DNA from: Actinomycetota bacterium
GTDB lineage: Bacteria > Actinomycetota > Acidimicrobiia > Acidimicrobiales > Ilumatobacteraceae
Direction: 5' to 3'
DNA length: 64,000 bases
Assembly (NCBI GenBank): GCA_009701715.1
Contig: WLJO01000006.1
Span: 1-64,000, forward strand
A model generated the notes under the pieces. The model did not search any database. It was not told the origin of the DNA and worked only from the letters and a program-made list of their open reading frames with translations. This document shows, in pieces, positions 54,308 to 62,340 of the stretch (its first letter is position 1; each line of letters starts with the position of its first letter). The translations under genes were made by a program, and so were the position numbers.

Positions 54308-54477
54308 CGTCGCGTGGAGCCGGGTGCGAGATCCGTCGCTGCGCTCCTCCCGATTCTGTCGGGCCGTCTGGAGGCGACTTCGTCGCGTGGAGCCGGGTGC
54401 GAGATCCGTCGCTGCGCTCCTCCCGATTCTGTCGGGCCGTCTGGAGGCGACTTCGTCGCGTGGAGCCGGGTGCGAGA
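54308..54477 (-). repeat. 73-bp tandem repeats ending in the tRNA-Thr 3' tail
   Basis: Two complete identical-looking 73-bp units (54308-54380, 54381-54453) and a third, partial one that merges into the tRNA gene. Each unit contains, on the minus strand, the tRNA 3' T-arm/acceptor end TCTCGCACCCGGCTCC followed by the same downstream sequence. The units thus look like repeated duplication of the tRNA tail with its flank. Confidence 0.9.
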
Positions 54478-54536
54478 ATCGAACTCGCGACCTCATGATT
54501 ACAAGTCAAGTGCTCTGCCAACTGAGCTAACCCGGC
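54464..54536 (-). tRNA. tRNA-Thr (anticodon TGT)
   Basis: Minus-strand cloverleaf: acceptor GCCGGGT with ACCCGGC, D-arm GCTC...GAGC, anticodon loop CTTGTAA (TGT, Thr ACA codon), T-arm GCGAG-TTCGATT-CTCGC, no encoded CCA. The anticodon stem is CTTGA against TCATG, with a U-U mismatch at pair 28-42, where TCAAG would be expected. The gene may still work but this is an odd blemish. Confidence 0.9.
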
Positions 54537-54700
54537 GGGGACTGTGCGTAATCCTGTGCGATATTCGGTGCGCAGGTTTGTGCAGGCCGGTTGTCAGGCT
54601 AACGGGTGGCTCGAAGGTCCGGAAATGGTGCTTCGAGGGGGCTTCGACCGTGGTTACGGGAGCCGGTTTGGGTGTTTGGGCGCGCCGGGGCCGGTGCGGG

Positions 54701-55464
54701 TCAGACTGCGGCTGGCTGTTTCGGCTTGCGCGTGGGCTCTGGCGGTTTGTAGTGCCCGAATCTGGAGCTGATGTCGCCTCCGGTGTGCCGGTACCACTGG
54801 ATCATCGCGAGCTGATTCGAGACCATGATGTACGAGTAGTTGTGAACGGTCCTGTCGGCGAGGCCGTAGGTGCGGGCCCGTTTGTTCGGGCGGCGCTGCT
54901 TCATGTTGTGGTTGAGGGACTCGGCGAGCTGGCGGAGCCCGTAGAGGTCGGGGAAGTCGGGGTCGTCCTCGGGGATCGGCCGGAGGTGGGTGCCTGCTCG
55001 TTGGCCGGCGGCAAGTTGTTCGTCGGTGGAGTTGTGGCGGACACGGACGATCGCTCCGTGCTGGCGCTCGGGGATGGCGGGGTGGGCGGGAACTTTCCAC
55101 TCGACGTACAGCGCGTAACGGCCGTTCTCGGTGTCGCGGGGTTCGTTCCACTGGATCTTGTGGCGGTCGAGGAGGATGAAGTGTTTGCCGTGCTCGTCAG
55201 CGACCTGGATCGCGGGGTGACCGTTGACGGCCCACACGGTTTCGTTGAAGGAGGTCTTTCCCGACTTGCGGAATGTCTTGTCGCCGAGGTTCTTGTAGGG
55301 GACGTTGCCGCCCTTGGCGCGGGCCACGCCGTTGATGACGAGGAGCCGGTGGTCGGCTGCCCGGCTGTGGTGTTTGGCGGTCGCCGACTTGTCGTGAACG
55401 AGTCCTTGGAGGCCGGGCAGGCGGTCCTTGAGCCCGACGACTCGCCGAACGACGCCGAACGGCT
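54701..55464 (-). pseudogene. Transposase-like fragment (N-terminus missing)
   Basis: A frame open from inside the end of the neighbouring gene (about 55500) to TGA at 54701; GTG 55327 is the first usable start (208 aa). The sequence KGGNVPYKNLGDKTF, RHNSTDEQLAAGQRAG, LYGLRQLAESLNHNMKQR and MVSNQLAMIQWYRHTGG resembles the C-terminal half of DDE transposases of actinobacterial insertion sequences, where an acidic residue in the Y-x-R/L-x-x-x-E-S-x-N helix completes the triad. The N-terminal catalytic part is absent and the frame runs into the delta-60 gene, so it is a remnant. No inverted repeats were found. The assignment is moderate. Confidence 0.45.
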
Positions 55465-56673
55465 TTACGCCGCGGCGTGCTTGCGCCGGCGAGTGACTGC
55501 GGTGCCGGCGGCAGCACTACCCACGGCCACTGCTGCGATCACCACGATCCAGACACCGTTGCCTCCCCCGCCTCCCGAGATGGTGCCACCGACTCCGGAA
55601 GGGGCAACGCTGTAGAGGCGCTTGATCCCCCCGGTGAACTCGCCGGCAATGACGATCCTGCCGTCCGTCTGCATCACAACCGCCCGGACAGCACCATTTA
55701 GCGTCGGAACGCTGAACGAGGTATCCACGGTGCCGGTGGCAGCGAGGCGCTTGATCCGCCCGGTGAACTCGCCACCGACAACGATCCTGCCGTCCGCCTG
55801 GATCGCAAGCGCCCGGACAGCGCCGTCGAGCGCCGGTTTGGCAAAAGTGCTGTCGATGTCGCTATTAACGTTGTAGCGCGCGATGTTGACGAGGGGGGCG
55901 GGACGCGGATTTGGCCGGTCAAGAAACGACATCGTGAAGCTACCCCCGACGATGACCTTGCCGTCGGCCTGCAACGCGACCGAGTACACGCTGCCGGTGT
56001 CGTCGAAGCCGCTGGAGTACCAAGCTTCGTCTCGTGCTCCGTTGGATAGGTAACGGGAAAACGTCGAGTTGTCGCCGCCGAGATAGATCTTCTGATCGGC
56101 CCGTACCGCAATCGCCCAGACCGGGTTTGACACGCCCTCCGCCCCAAACGTGTCGTCGTTGCTCCCGTTGGTGTTGAGGCGTCGCACGTTTCCGGAGAAG
56201 GTGCCGCCGATGATGATCTTGCCATCGGCTTGGATTGCAACCGAAATCACTGCGAAGGAGAGGTAAGGCGCGGTGAAGGTTGCGTCGATGGTGCCGTTGG
56301 CGTTGAGGCGCTTCACGAATGCGGGCAGGCCCCCGACCACGACGATCTTCCCGTCGGTCTGCACCGCAATCGCATTGACGGGACTGGTGAACGACTGTTG
56401 GGCAAAAGTCGTGTCGATGGTGCCGTCGGTGTTCAGTCTCTTCACAAATGCCGACTTGGACGTTACATAGATTCCAACGATGATCTTTCCGTCGGCCTGC
56501 ACCGCGATCGCCTGAACAGTGCCGCCCAGTGCCGGTGCGCTGAACGAGGAATCCACGGATCCGGCTGCCACTTGAGCAACGACGGGTTCGGTAGCGAACA
56601 ACATGGTGGCGCCGATGGTCACCATCAGCACGGCAAGTGTCGCAAGGTTGCGTCCGGTGACTCTCCAGAACAT
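55465..56673 (-). CDS. Secreted delta-60 repeat protein with C-terminal membrane anchor
   Basis: 402 aa from ATG 56673 (GGGAGAG upstream). Signal/membrane segment NLATLAVLMVTIGATMLFAT, then about seven delta-60/DUF5122 repeats (AIAVQADGKIIVGGxF...RLNTDGTIDTTF) giving a beta-propeller, and a tail GGTISGGGGG, a hydrophobic helix and TRRRKHAAA. That tail resembles a cell-surface sorting signal but has no LPxTG. It is related to the 16588 gene (same repeats) but lacks the collagen part. The closely packed transposase-like frame follows its stop. Confidence 0.85.
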   Translation of the reverse strand: MFWRVTGRNLATLAVLMVTIGATMLFATEPVVAQVAAGSVDSSFSAPALGGTVQAIAVQADGKIIVGIYVTSKSAFVKRLNTDGTIDTTFAQQSFTSPVNAIAVQTDGKIVVVGGLPAFVKRLNANGTIDATFTAPYLSFAVISVAIQADGKIIIGGTFSGNVRRLNTNGSNDDTFGAEGVSNPVWAIAVRADQKIYLGGDNSTFSRYLSNGARDEAWYSSGFDDTGSVYSVALQADGKVIVGGSFTMSFLDRPNPRPAPLVNIARYNVNSDIDSTFAKPALDGAVRALAIQADGRIVVGGEFTGRIKRLAATGTVDTSFSVPTLNGAVRAVVMQTDGRIVIAGEFTGGIKRLYSVAPSGVGGTISGGGGGNGVWIVVIAAVAVGSAAAGTAVTRRRKHAAA

Positions 56674-56917
56674 CGCTTGACTCTCCCTCGGTCGGCCAAT
56701 GTAGCCCCGACGGAGCTGAACCTCGGCCAGATCGTATCGGGAGTGCCTTTCGCCCGGTGGAGCGTGCAGCAACCAGTACGAGCACGTTGCCAAGAACTAC
56801 CAAGCCACCACCCGTGCCCGGGTGAACGTCGGTGTCTGCGTAACCCAGCTGCGTCGTCACTGGCAGTAAGTTCCCCTCAGTAACGGGAGGTCAGCGCGAT
56901 GTCTCTCGGGGGGATCG
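56674..56917. other. Divergent intergenic region between two secreted repeat proteins
   Basis: 244 bp containing the promoters of the delta-60 gene (minus) and the secreted propeller gene (plus). No frame or repeat of note; base composition is lower in GC than the housekeeping regions. Confidence 0.5.
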
Positions 56918-58534
56918 ATGATGAAGCACACTTTCGTTCGCACTGGGGTAGCCGGGCTCGTCGCCTCAGCGCTTGTCGTTGTGGTTCCAACGTTGGAGGC
57001 ATCAGCGGCCTCAACGTCGTGGTCGTGGGGTGACACCGCGCAAGTATCGGACGCGCCGCAGTTCTCGTATCGACCGAGAATCGCGATGTCGGCTGATGGT
57101 TCGAGAGCAATTGCAATCTGGTTGTGGAGTGACGGCGGGAATCTCAAGCTTCAGTCGAAGTCCGCAACGATCGTCAACGGTGTCGCAACATGGAGCACTG
57201 CCACTGTCATCGCTGATCGACTCCATCAATACGGTGACGACCCACAGATCGTGATGTCTGCCGACGGCACGTCTGCGGCCGCTGCATGGCTTACCTCTGT
57301 GGGCGGCAACTCGGTGGTCTACTCACGGGTGGCAACGGTTACCTCGAGTGGGGTCGCTTGGGGTTCGGTGGCGGGGCTATCGGATGTCACGAGCATCGCG
57401 AGGCGTCCACGCATCGCCCAGTCCGCGAACGGAGCGATGCTCACTGCCGTTTGGTTGCAGCAGCGAGATGGTCGCTCAGTCGTCCAGTCACGTTCAGCCA
57501 TAGTGGGCGCCTCGAACGCGTCGTGGGGAACCACGAGTGATCTGTCGGATCCTGGGGGCGATGTTCGAGACCTCTCGATTGTGTTGTCAGCCGCAGGAAC
57601 AACGTCGGTCGCGACGTGGATGTGGTTGGAGGAGGAGCGGTACTACGCCTACCTCGTGCAGACGAGGCCCGCCATGATTGTCGACAACGTCGCCACCTGG
57701 GGCCCGACCACAGATCTGTCGGATGGCGCCGAAGGTGACGGGAATTATCCGCAGGTTGCGCTCTCGGCGGACGGTGCTCGGGCTACGGCCGTGTGGAGTG
57801 GCTGGGACGGACAGAGCAGCACGATGACGGCCCAGTCGAAGTCGGCGACGATTCTCGGCAACGTTGCTACGTGGAGCACGGCGACCAACCTGTCCGACAC
57901 TGCGCAGAACGCCCACGACACTCAGGTGGCGCTCTCGTCCGACGGCACCAAGGCGACTGCGTTGTGGTCCAGGTTCAACGGAAGCGCGATGGTGCTTCAG
58001 TCCTGCTCGGCAACGATTGTCGGCACCGCCGCAACGTGGGGTGCTGTGAGCGACCTTGGGGAGACCGGCGAGCCGCAGGATGCAGCACAGAAGGATCGTC
58101 CACAAGCAGCGATGTCGGCGGATGGCGCACGGGTTACGGCGCTCTGGCTGCTGGTGGGCAGCGAAGGTGAGTCCCTGCTGCAAACAGGATCAGCGACGAT
58201 CGCCGGCACCGTCGCCGCGTGGACCGACGTCAGCACCTTGTCCCAGCCGGACGAGAACCCCGGCTACCCGCAACTTGCGATGTCCGCCGATGGCACCACC
58301 GCCACTGTCGTCTGGTACGGATCGACGGCGACTCGCGATTACGCCAAGATCCGCGCGCGCACGGGCAGAGTGGTCGATGGCGTTGCTCCATCCCGAGGCG
58401 GCACGTTGACGGGTAGCGGGAGCAGCAACACCGTGTGGATTGTGCTGATCGCCGTCGCAGGCGGACTGCTGCTGGTGTCGGGCGGCTTTGCTGTGGCGCG
58501 CAGACGCAGGTCAGCCAGTCAGGCCGCCCAGTGA
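56918..58534 (+). CDS. Secreted beta-propeller repeat protein with C-terminal membrane anchor
   Basis: 538 aa. Signal peptide (VRTGVAGLVASALVVVVPTL), then about eight degenerate repeats of ~55 aa with the consensus PQIAMSADGTxAxAxW ... QSxSATIxGxxATWxxxTDLS, which would fold as a beta-propeller. The tail RGGTLTGSGSSNTVWIVLIA then a helix and ARRRRSASQ parallels the tail of the divergent 55465 protein. A hand count of one line gives ~52% GC, well below the genome-like ~65%, so recent transfer is plausible. Function unknown; likely surface adhesion or binding. Confidence 0.8.
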   Translation: MMKHTFVRTGVAGLVASALVVVVPTLEASAASTSWSWGDTAQVSDAPQFSYRPRIAMSADGSRAIAIWLWSDGGNLKLQSKSATIVNGVATWSTATVIADRLHQYGDDPQIVMSADGTSAAAAWLTSVGGNSVVYSRVATVTSSGVAWGSVAGLSDVTSIARRPRIAQSANGAMLTAVWLQQRDGRSVVQSRSAIVGASNASWGTTSDLSDPGGDVRDLSIVLSAAGTTSVATWMWLEEERYYAYLVQTRPAMIVDNVATWGPTTDLSDGAEGDGNYPQVALSADGARATAVWSGWDGQSSTMTAQSKSATILGNVATWSTATNLSDTAQNAHDTQVALSSDGTKATALWSRFNGSAMVLQSCSATIVGTAATWGAVSDLGETGEPQDAAQKDRPQAAMSADGARVTALWLLVGSEGESLLQTGSATIAGTVAAWTDVSTLSQPDENPGYPQLAMSADGTTATVVWYGSTATRDYAKIRARTGRVVDGVAPSRGGTLTGSGSSNTVWIVLIAVAGGLLLVSGGFAVARRRRSASQAAQ

Positions 58535-58846: not shown

Positions 58847-60058
58847 ATGGCGCACCTCCCCACCCCTCCCTTCGATCGGGCTGCCGACTGGGTGGGGCAG
58901 CACCTCGGTCACCTCGTCTGCGACCCGGGCACGCCGGCTGAACCGGCGCGGCGCGGCGGCCAGCGCGCCGCTGATTCCGCGCTGGCATCACTTGACATTG
59001 CTGGCTACGCCAAGCGGCGCAGCCAGGTGCACCCTGCACCCAGCCGCGGGGCGACGGTGCTGTCGCCGTACATCCGGTACGGCCTGATCTCCCTCGCCGA
59101 GGCGACGGCCGCCGTTGCCGATGCACCGGCCGCCGATCGACGCAAGTTCGTGGACGAACTGTGGTGGCAGGAATACGCACGCCACCTGTACGCACGCGTC
59201 GGCACCCGGAACGCCGCACCGCTGCGACGTGAACCCGCGGTGGCCGCCACCCCTTGGCCCGAGCCGCTCCGCGACGACATGGTGTGTATGCGCGAGACGC
59301 GGGATGAGCTTGAGCGAACAGGATGGCTGGTGAACCAGACCCGGATGTGGCTGGCATCACACTGGTCGGTGAGGGCGGGCAACGACTGGCGTGACGGCGA
59401 GGAGTGGATGTTCCGTCACCTGCTCGACGGCTCACGCGCAGCGAACCGGTACGGGTGGCAGTGGTCGGTAGGTGCCATGGCCGCGGAGGCCTACGGCTTC
59501 TCGCGATGGCAGGTGGACAAGCGTGCCCAGGCGTGGTGTGGTTCGTGCCCGCTCGCTGAGAACTGCCCGATCGAGGACTGGCCCACGGCCACACCCGGTG
59601 GGGCGGTGGATGATGCGCTGTTACGTTCCGGGCCGGACCTCGCCGGTCCCGAAGCGGCAGAGATAGCCGGGATACCCGAGCAGGTGTGGCTGACCGCAGA
59701 GTCACTCGGCGAGCGGGATCCGGCACTGGCCGCGTGGCCGCACACCCCTGCGGTGTTCGTGTTCGACGAACCACTCCTCCACCAACTCCGGCTCAGCACC
59801 AAGCGCCTCGTGTTCCTCACCGAGACCCTCGCCGAGATTGCCGAACAGCGTGAGGTGCGCATCCTGTTGGGCGACCCCGTTGCCGAACTGGCCGGCGTGG
59901 CGCTCGCGTCCACCTTCGCCCCGGTGCCCGGCTACGAGCGACGGGTGGCGAAGCTGAACGTGGTGGCTGCCTATCCGTATCCGTGGGCCCGACGACCGAG
60001 CGGTGGCGATGTGCGCAGCCACAGCGCATGGATACGCAACAGTCCCTCGCGTCGCTAG
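58847..60058 (+). CDS. Photolyase/cryptochrome-like protein with permuted domain order
   Basis: 403 aa from ATG 58847. Residues ~1-250 are the photolyase FAD-binding domain (TVLSPYIRYGLISLAEATAA, FVDELWWQEYARHLYARVG, DWRDGEEWMFRHLLDGSRAA and NRYGWQWSVGAMAAEAYGFS). They are followed by a Cys cluster WCGSCPLAENCPIEDWP and then (~300-375) a segment VFVFDEPLLHQLRLSTKRLV ... REVRILLGDPVAEL that matches the N-terminal antenna domain of ordinary photolyases. In those proteins this domain precedes the FAD domain, so the order is swapped. Repair activity is likely but unproven. Confidence 0.85.
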   Translation: MAHLPTPPFDRAADWVGQHLGHLVCDPGTPAEPARRGGQRAADSALASLDIAGYAKRRSQVHPAPSRGATVLSPYIRYGLISLAEATAAVADAPAADRRKFVDELWWQEYARHLYARVGTRNAAPLRREPAVAATPWPEPLRDDMVCMRETRDELERTGWLVNQTRMWLASHWSVRAGNDWRDGEEWMFRHLLDGSRAANRYGWQWSVGAMAAEAYGFSRWQVDKRAQAWCGSCPLAENCPIEDWPTATPGGAVDDALLRSGPDLAGPEAAEIAGIPEQVWLTAESLGERDPALAAWPHTPAVFVFDEPLLHQLRLSTKRLVFLTETLAEIAEQREVRILLGDPVAELAGVALASTFAPVPGYERRVAKLNVVAAYPYPWARRPSGGDVRSHSAWIRNSPSRR

Positions 60059-61461: not shown

Positions 61462-62340
61462 AACTTCCGCAAGTACCTTGCGGTAGCCGTTGCTGCCGCT
61501 GCTGTCTCTGCATTCGCGGCCGCAGCACCCGCACACGCCGCAGCCGGTGACATCAGCACCGTCGCCGGCACCGGGGTGCTCGGGTCCAGTGGCGACAGCG
61601 GACTGGCCACCGCCGCACAGCTCAACGGCCCGTCGGACGTAGCCATTGATACTGCCGGCAACCTGTACATCGTCGACTCCGGCAACAACCGCATCCGCAA
61701 GGTCACTGCGGCCACCGGCATCATCACCACCATCGCCGGCGACGGCACCGCCAGCCACACCGGCGACGACGCACTCGCCACAGGCGCGACACTGAACACT
61801 CCGGTATCAGTGTCGCTGGACGCCGCCGGGAACATCTATATCGCCGAGTACGCGGGCAACACCGTCCGCAAGATCACGGCCTTCACCGGCATCATCACCT
61901 CGGTCGCCGGCGGCGGCAGCAGTGGCCTGGGCGACAGCGGCCTCGCAACCCTCGCCGAGCTCAACGGCCCGGAGGATGCCATTGTGGACGCCACCGGCAA
62001 CCTCTACATCTCCGAATACGAGAGCAGCCGGATCCGCAAGGTCGCTGCCGATACCGGCATCATCACCACGATCGCCGGCGGCGGCAGCAGCGGCCTGGGC
62101 GACGGCGAGCTCGCAACCGTCGCCGAGCTCAATGGCCCCGGCTATATCACGCTCGACGGTGACGGCAACCTGTACGTCGCCGACTACAACAACAACCGGA
62201 TCCGCAAGGTCACCGGTCTTGTCGCACCGTTCACCCTGCCCCCCACCGGGGCGAGCACCGATGGTCTCGTGTGGCTTGCCGCAGCCCTGCTCGGCGCCGG
62301 AGTGGTGCTCGTCACCACCCGCCGCCGCCACACCGTCTAA
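61462..62340 (+). CDS. NHL-repeat surface protein with LPPTG sortase signal; start codon apparently disrupted
   Basis: ~292 codons open from 61462. The first residues NFRKYLAVAVAAAAVSAFAA and APAHA form a clear signal peptide, but no ATG, GTG or TTG precedes them in frame; 61459-61461 is TAG. The sequence ATAGAAC would read ATGAAC with one base removed, and AAGGG lies at the right distance. The next in-frame start is GTG 61576, which would lose the signal. The mature part has four or five NHL-type repeats (GLATAAQLNGPSDVAIDTAG NLYIVDSGNNRIRKV...). The end has LPPTG, a hydrophobic helix and RRRHTV, a complete sortase signal. Treated as a gene with a start defect or a sequence error. Confidence 0.75.
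   Translation, partial: NFRKYLAVAVAAAAVSAFAAAAPAHAAAGDISTVAGTGVLGSSGDSGLATAAQLNGPSDVAIDTAGNLYIVDSGNNRIRKVTAATGIITTIAGDGTASHTGDDALATGATLNTPVSVSLDAAGNIYIAEYAGNTVRKITAFTGIITSVAGGGSSGLGDSGLATLAELNGPEDAIVDATGNLYISEYESSRIRKVAADTGIITTIAGGGSSGLGDGELATVAELNGPGYITLDGDGNLYVADYNNNRIRKVTGLVAPFTLPPTGASTDGLVWLAAALLGAGVVLVTTRRRHTV

Follow-up and report, generated by a model that had tools for sequence, protein, structure and literature searches.

An actinobacterial photolyase gene with its FAD domain first and an antenna-domain homologue last

A photolyase whose antenna domain follows the FAD-binding domain raises two questions: whether the second domain really is an antenna domain, and whether such a protein can still be expected to repair DNA. 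We examined a gene of this kind in a window of 64,000 nucleotides, the whole stretch analysed here, from contig WLJO01000006.1 of an Ilumatobacteraceae assembly (Actinomycetota; GCA_009701715.1). A preliminary description, made from the sequence alone, had proposed an N-terminal FAD-binding domain, a fragment resembling an antenna domain behind it, a Cys cluster in between and possibly a changed role. The features discussed below are collected in Table 1.

The open reading frame of the photolyase gene is intact. A GTG upstream of the ATG is a second candidate start; alignments of relatives to the protein begin at about residues 3-5, which makes the ATG a plausible start. Codon-position differences to one relative (L001) were 0.19/0.11/0.53 in the FAD domain and 0.20/0.10/0.50 in the C-terminal part, indicating that purifying selection acts alike on both domains. 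We rejected a pseudogene or frameshift reading on the grounds of the intact frame, the retained invariant residues and these codon-position differences.

Table 1. Features of the reverse-order photolyase gene in the window (coordinates are window positions)
Feature	Coordinates	Strand	Evidence or remark
Photolyase gene, domain order reversed	58847..60058	+	403 aa; ATG 58847, GTG 58802 possible
N-terminal FAD-binding catalytic domain (aa ~26-242)	58922..59572	+	Pfam PF03441, phmmer, hhalign
E104 and W107, matching the CPD contacts E283 and W286 of A. nidulans	59156..59167	+	phmmer alignment; invariant 26/26
Q108, aligned with the FAD contact R287	59168..59170	+	alignment; Q in 23/26, R in Deinococcus
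C147, first putative Fe-S ligand	59285..59287	+	invariant 26/26
N163, matching N349 (A. nidulans) / N341 (E. coli)	59333..59335	+	alignment
S196, aligned with the FAD contact D382	59432..59434	+	alignment; S in 23/26, D in Deinococcus
W204-Q205-W206, equivalents of W382 (electron transfer) and W384 (lesion contact), E. coli numbering	59456..59464	+	alignment
C231-x2-C234-x5-C240, other putative Fe-S ligands	59537..59566	+	invariant 26/26
Variable linker between domains	59573..59677	+	family alignment
C-terminal antenna-type alpha/beta domain (aa ~278-383)	59678..59995	+	hhalign, AF2, VIA-align, blind genome scan
C-terminal tail with conserved Trp (W395), then stop	59996..60058	+	W395 invariant 26/26

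The FAD domain does stand at the N-terminus, as the preliminary description had it. Pfam FAD_binding_7 (PF03441, cut-off 27 bits) matched residues 154-213 with 38 bits and E 1.5e-9, phmmer aligned residues 26-215 with class I photolyases (1tez/1owl/1iqr) in their FAD domains, and hhalign of the N-terminal domain against the class I FAD domain gave 99.9% (E 2e-32). NCBIfam models of class I photolyases matched weakly, hmmsearch reached class I CPD photolyases at E 3.5e-29 versus E 6.5e-6 for PhrB (4dja), and the superfamily residues R166, D194, N200 and W204 are invariant in the family alignment. A FAD-domain match that begins at residue 26 leaves no room for an antenna domain ahead of it. With the FAD domain starting at about residue 26 and the antenna domain at about residue 278, the order is the opposite of that in ordinary photolyases and departs from the canonical class I/III arrangement.

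Behind the linker lies a whole antenna domain. The preliminary description was right about the resemblance; what it took for a fragment is a complete five-strand domain, and the segment that it quoted (FDEPLL...LSTKRLVFL...LLGDP) is the middle of it. When the C-terminal columns of 26 family sequences were compared by hhalign with 14 class I antenna domains, the match reached 96.6% (E 6.4e-10), with 97.4% over 129 columns for the Deinococcus sequences alone and 95.1% for the actinobacterial and Chloroflexota sequences alone; neither control matched, the column-reversed one giving 0.1% and the comparison with the FAD domain of class I 0.3%. Searched blind with the C-terminal profile, 396 genomes of the phylum yielded 26 members of the family (E 1.3e-50 or better) and six other genes (E 1e-7 to 1e-6). 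In all six of these, the matched region was an antenna domain N-terminal to a photolyase FAD domain, that is, in canonical order. Against PDB sequences, the same profile ranked photolyase/cryptochrome antenna domains first, with a weak E of 0.14, which we did not count as proof. Pfam DNA_photolyase gave no match at the C-terminus of the window protein and weak matches below the cut-off in two Deinococcus relatives.

Structure prediction led to the same result. A whole-chain AlphaFold2 model from eight sequences was poor (pLDDT 49) and its Foldseek matches were meaningless, so the C-terminal domain was modelled alone. This model (pLDDT 82.7) has five strands, at residues 279-282, 302-307, 337-342, 352-356 and 371-376, with helices between them. 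Among the VIA-align matches listed for it, all 50 were photolyases or cryptochromes (Z 7.1-10.1), and in nearly all of those listed the alignment started at chain residue 1-6. A predicted C-terminal fold of some other kind would have spoken against the preliminary description; the model gave no such result. We conclude that what follows the linker is a genuine and entire homologue of the antenna domain. The genome that contains the window also encodes an FO synthase, so that the host has 8-HDF at its disposal as a possible antenna pigment.

Four Cys are invariant in the 26 aligned family sequences, with a spacing of 84/3/6. The cluster that had been placed between the domains is indeed there in its last three members; the remaining one, C147, lies inside the FAD domain. 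This set likely points to an Fe-S cofactor, as judged from sequence conservation.

A changed role, by contrast, finds no footing in the catalytic residues, since the CPD-contacting positions are intact. Residues were matched by alignment with the enzymes of A. nidulans and E. coli. E104, W107, N163 and W206, which we take to be CPD contacts as in class I photolyases, are invariant in the family alignment, and so are N200, presumably the Asn at flavin N5, and W181 and W204, presumably electron-transfer Trp. M167 is Met in 23 of the 26 aligned sequences. With its CPD contacts and its flavin N5 residue kept, the protein should still repair CPDs. Two positions stand out in the flavin pocket, corresponding to R287 and D382, both among the listed FAD-contact residues (PMC9426592). 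In all 23 actinobacterial and Chloroflexota members they are replaced as a pair, R287 by Q and D382 by S with an Arg following directly, and the same Q/S pair, again followed by Arg, is present in 12 further genomes. R and D are kept in Deinococcus, in the readable NewPHL-like sequences (by motif search) and in class I, where two sequences have E for D.

In a tree of FAD domains, the 23 actinobacterial and Chloroflexota sequences, that of the window included, formed one group (100/100), separate from class I (100/99) and from NewPHL-like proteins (100/100). The Deinococcus relatives joined the window clade weakly (74/44), and for this reason we regard a shared ancestor of these two reverse-order Cys groups as no more than likely. 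Homologues with the full FAD-then-antenna architecture occur in Actinomycetota, in Chloroflexota MAGs and, at ~30% identity, on Deinococcus plasmids. Of 246 genomes sampled from the phylum, 17 contained the family in a whole-protein search, and 26 of 396 did in the C-terminal-profile search; three genera of another actinobacterial family also carry it (18/201 genomes). Viral contigs that were searched yielded no relatives. The distribution is patchy but wide. On a plasmid of Deinococcus sp. QL22 (L042:2908-4199), the FAD and antenna domains are two genes overlapping by ATGA, a split that is apparently independent of the Synechococcus phr4/phr5 split, yet like it.

Most carriers have another photolyase: 16 of the 17 family-carrying genomes gave a second, canonical-type match, and the genome of the window itself encodes a canonical class I-like photolyase with an N-terminal antenna domain (L009:652-2142, contig C60). 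Gene neighbourhoods of the window and of six relatives (L001-L006) shared only the photolyase gene itself and ORFs antisense to it. Within the window, three predicted secreted or surface proteins surround the gene (55465-56793 on the minus strand, 56918-58534 and 61576-62340 on the plus strand); they have short repeats, propeller-like by eye, and a C-terminal hydrophobic stretch with a basic tail. Further upstream, a tRNA-Thr (tgt) at 54461-54536 on the minus strand is overlain by a long plus-strand ORF (54314-55615) that is probably spurious.

It is thus highly probable, as far as sequence can tell, that the gene product is a bacterial photolyase for CPDs in which the domain order is reversed, and that it belongs with the Fe-S-type short-photolyase-like or Phr4-5-6 proteins, as judged from their published descriptions. 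The actinobacterial protein most likely functions in CPD repair and binds FAD and a [4Fe-4S] cluster. In such an enzyme, light would reduce and excite FAD, and excited FADH- would give an electron to a cyclobutane pyrimidine dimer that has been flipped into the pocket, splitting it. The four Cys would hold the [4Fe-4S] cluster, which may stabilise the FAD domain on its C-terminal side as well as the contact of this domain with DNA, while the C-terminal domain would pack on the FAD domain and may bind an antenna pigment such as 8-HDF. The reverse-order enzyme would most likely act alongside the canonical photolyase, perhaps in other DNA contexts such as single strands. A domain-level permutation or gene rearrangement, as had been suggested, would fit as the origin of the order, as might a separate fusion. 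More tentatively, and with the balance leaning somewhat against it, the actinobacterial/Chloroflexota clade may be a distinct reverse-order Fe-S photolyase subclass in which R287 and D382 were replaced together; the replacements may tune the flavin differently, and the C-terminal domain may work as an antenna that binds pigment and is reached from the other end of the chain.

Several other explanations must be weighed against a CPD photolyase. The replacement of two FAD-contacting residues across the clade, in hosts that mostly have a canonical photolyase already, is what one might expect of a cryptochrome-like photoreceptor or signalling protein that kept the fold and lost repair. Yet the mappable CPD contacts are invariant, and the neighbourhoods compared between the window and L001-L006 contain no conserved gene hinting at signalling; we consider this role unlikely. 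Repair of a different lesion is similarly improbable. The four Cys recall PhrB, which hmmsearch also reaches, and the authors of the mBio paper allow for a (6-4) photolyase as the product of phr4/phr5 (PMC9426592), so that the protein might be a (6-4) photolyase like those of the Fe-S class FeS-BCP; against this, its sequence is much nearer to class I CPD photolyases than to PhrB, by the E-values given above, and the class I CPD contacts are retained.

The remaining alternative concerns the C-terminal segment, which might look like an antenna domain but be an unrelated domain of Rossmann-like type, such as a universal stress protein. USP and PPAT folds do appear among weak Foldseek matches. 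This explanation is nevertheless very hard to sustain given the profile homology to antenna domains with its failing controls, the blind genome scan, which beyond the family matched only photolyase antenna domains, and the VIA-align matches listed, every one of them a photolyase or cryptochrome. We therefore retain a reverse-order CPD photolyase with a C-terminal antenna homologue as the preferred reading.

How does this protein compare with known systems? The preliminary description implied novelty, and in this it was overtaken by the literature: reverse-order photolyases are already in print (PMC9426592, PMC13274461). Picocyanobacterial (marine Synechococcus/Cyanobium) Phr4/Phr5 and Phr6 have the reversed order and four Cys (PMC9426592). 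As in the window protein, their FAD domain is followed by a photolyase antenna domain, and the Cys of Synechococcus Phr4 (C169, C254, C257 and C263) are spaced 85/3/6, close to the spacing found here (PMC9426592). Single-gene and split-gene versions exist in both families, the split in ours being that in Deinococcus. The FAD contacts differ: according to the authors, those of Phr4/5/6, including R287 and D382, are kept (PMC9426592), whereas the window clade has Q and S.

PhrB of the FeS-BCP class has FAD and four Cys that hold a [4Fe-4S] cluster; the window protein has a four-Cys pattern and a putative cluster. The alpha/beta domain of PhrB is similar in fold to our C-terminal model (VIA-align Z 9.5). 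However, PhrB has canonical domain order and (6-4) specificity, and its Cys 350, 438, 441 and 454 are spaced 88/3/13 rather than 84/3/6.

For SPL proteins, the one tested in 2021 by Xu and colleagues reportedly came from Rhodococcus fascians. By published description, SPL proteins have no N-terminal alpha/beta domain and are close to class I/III CPD photolyases, and the same is true of the window protein; they are described as being without the alpha/beta domain, whereas the window protein has one at its C-terminus. They are also described as CPD repair enzymes, and the class is credited with an Fe-S cluster (Xu et al. 2021, as cited in PMC9649867 and PMC9178010).

NewPHL proteins share the inverted topology, with the FAD domain at the N-terminus and a further domain at the C-terminus (Emmerich et al. 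2020, as cited in PMC9426592 and PMC13274461); NewPHL and SPL proteins with inverted topology are summarised in PMC13274461. Unlike the window protein, NewPHL-like plasmid proteins are without the four Cys, and by profile comparison (hhalign 9.9%) their C-terminus scarcely registers as an antenna domain. They form a branch of their own in the FAD-domain tree, with which the window protein does not group. Their genes, on alphaproteobacterial plasmids (L043, L046, L048, L049), are annotated only as FAD-binding domain-containing and lie near DUF3429 or AarF/UbiB-kinase genes.

Set beside these systems, what is new is the actinobacterial/Chloroflexota clade with its two FAD-pocket substitutions, together with direct evidence for genuine homology between its C-terminal part and the antenna domain. 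The clade is present in complete-quality actinobacterial genomes as well as in MAGs, so expressible proteins should exist. It has been proposed that such proteins may lie at the root of the entire photolyase/cryptochrome family. That this clade has a true antenna homologue, placed at the opposite end of the chain, weakens "short" as an ancestral trait for it, and suggests instead that the antenna domain was relocated or fused separately.
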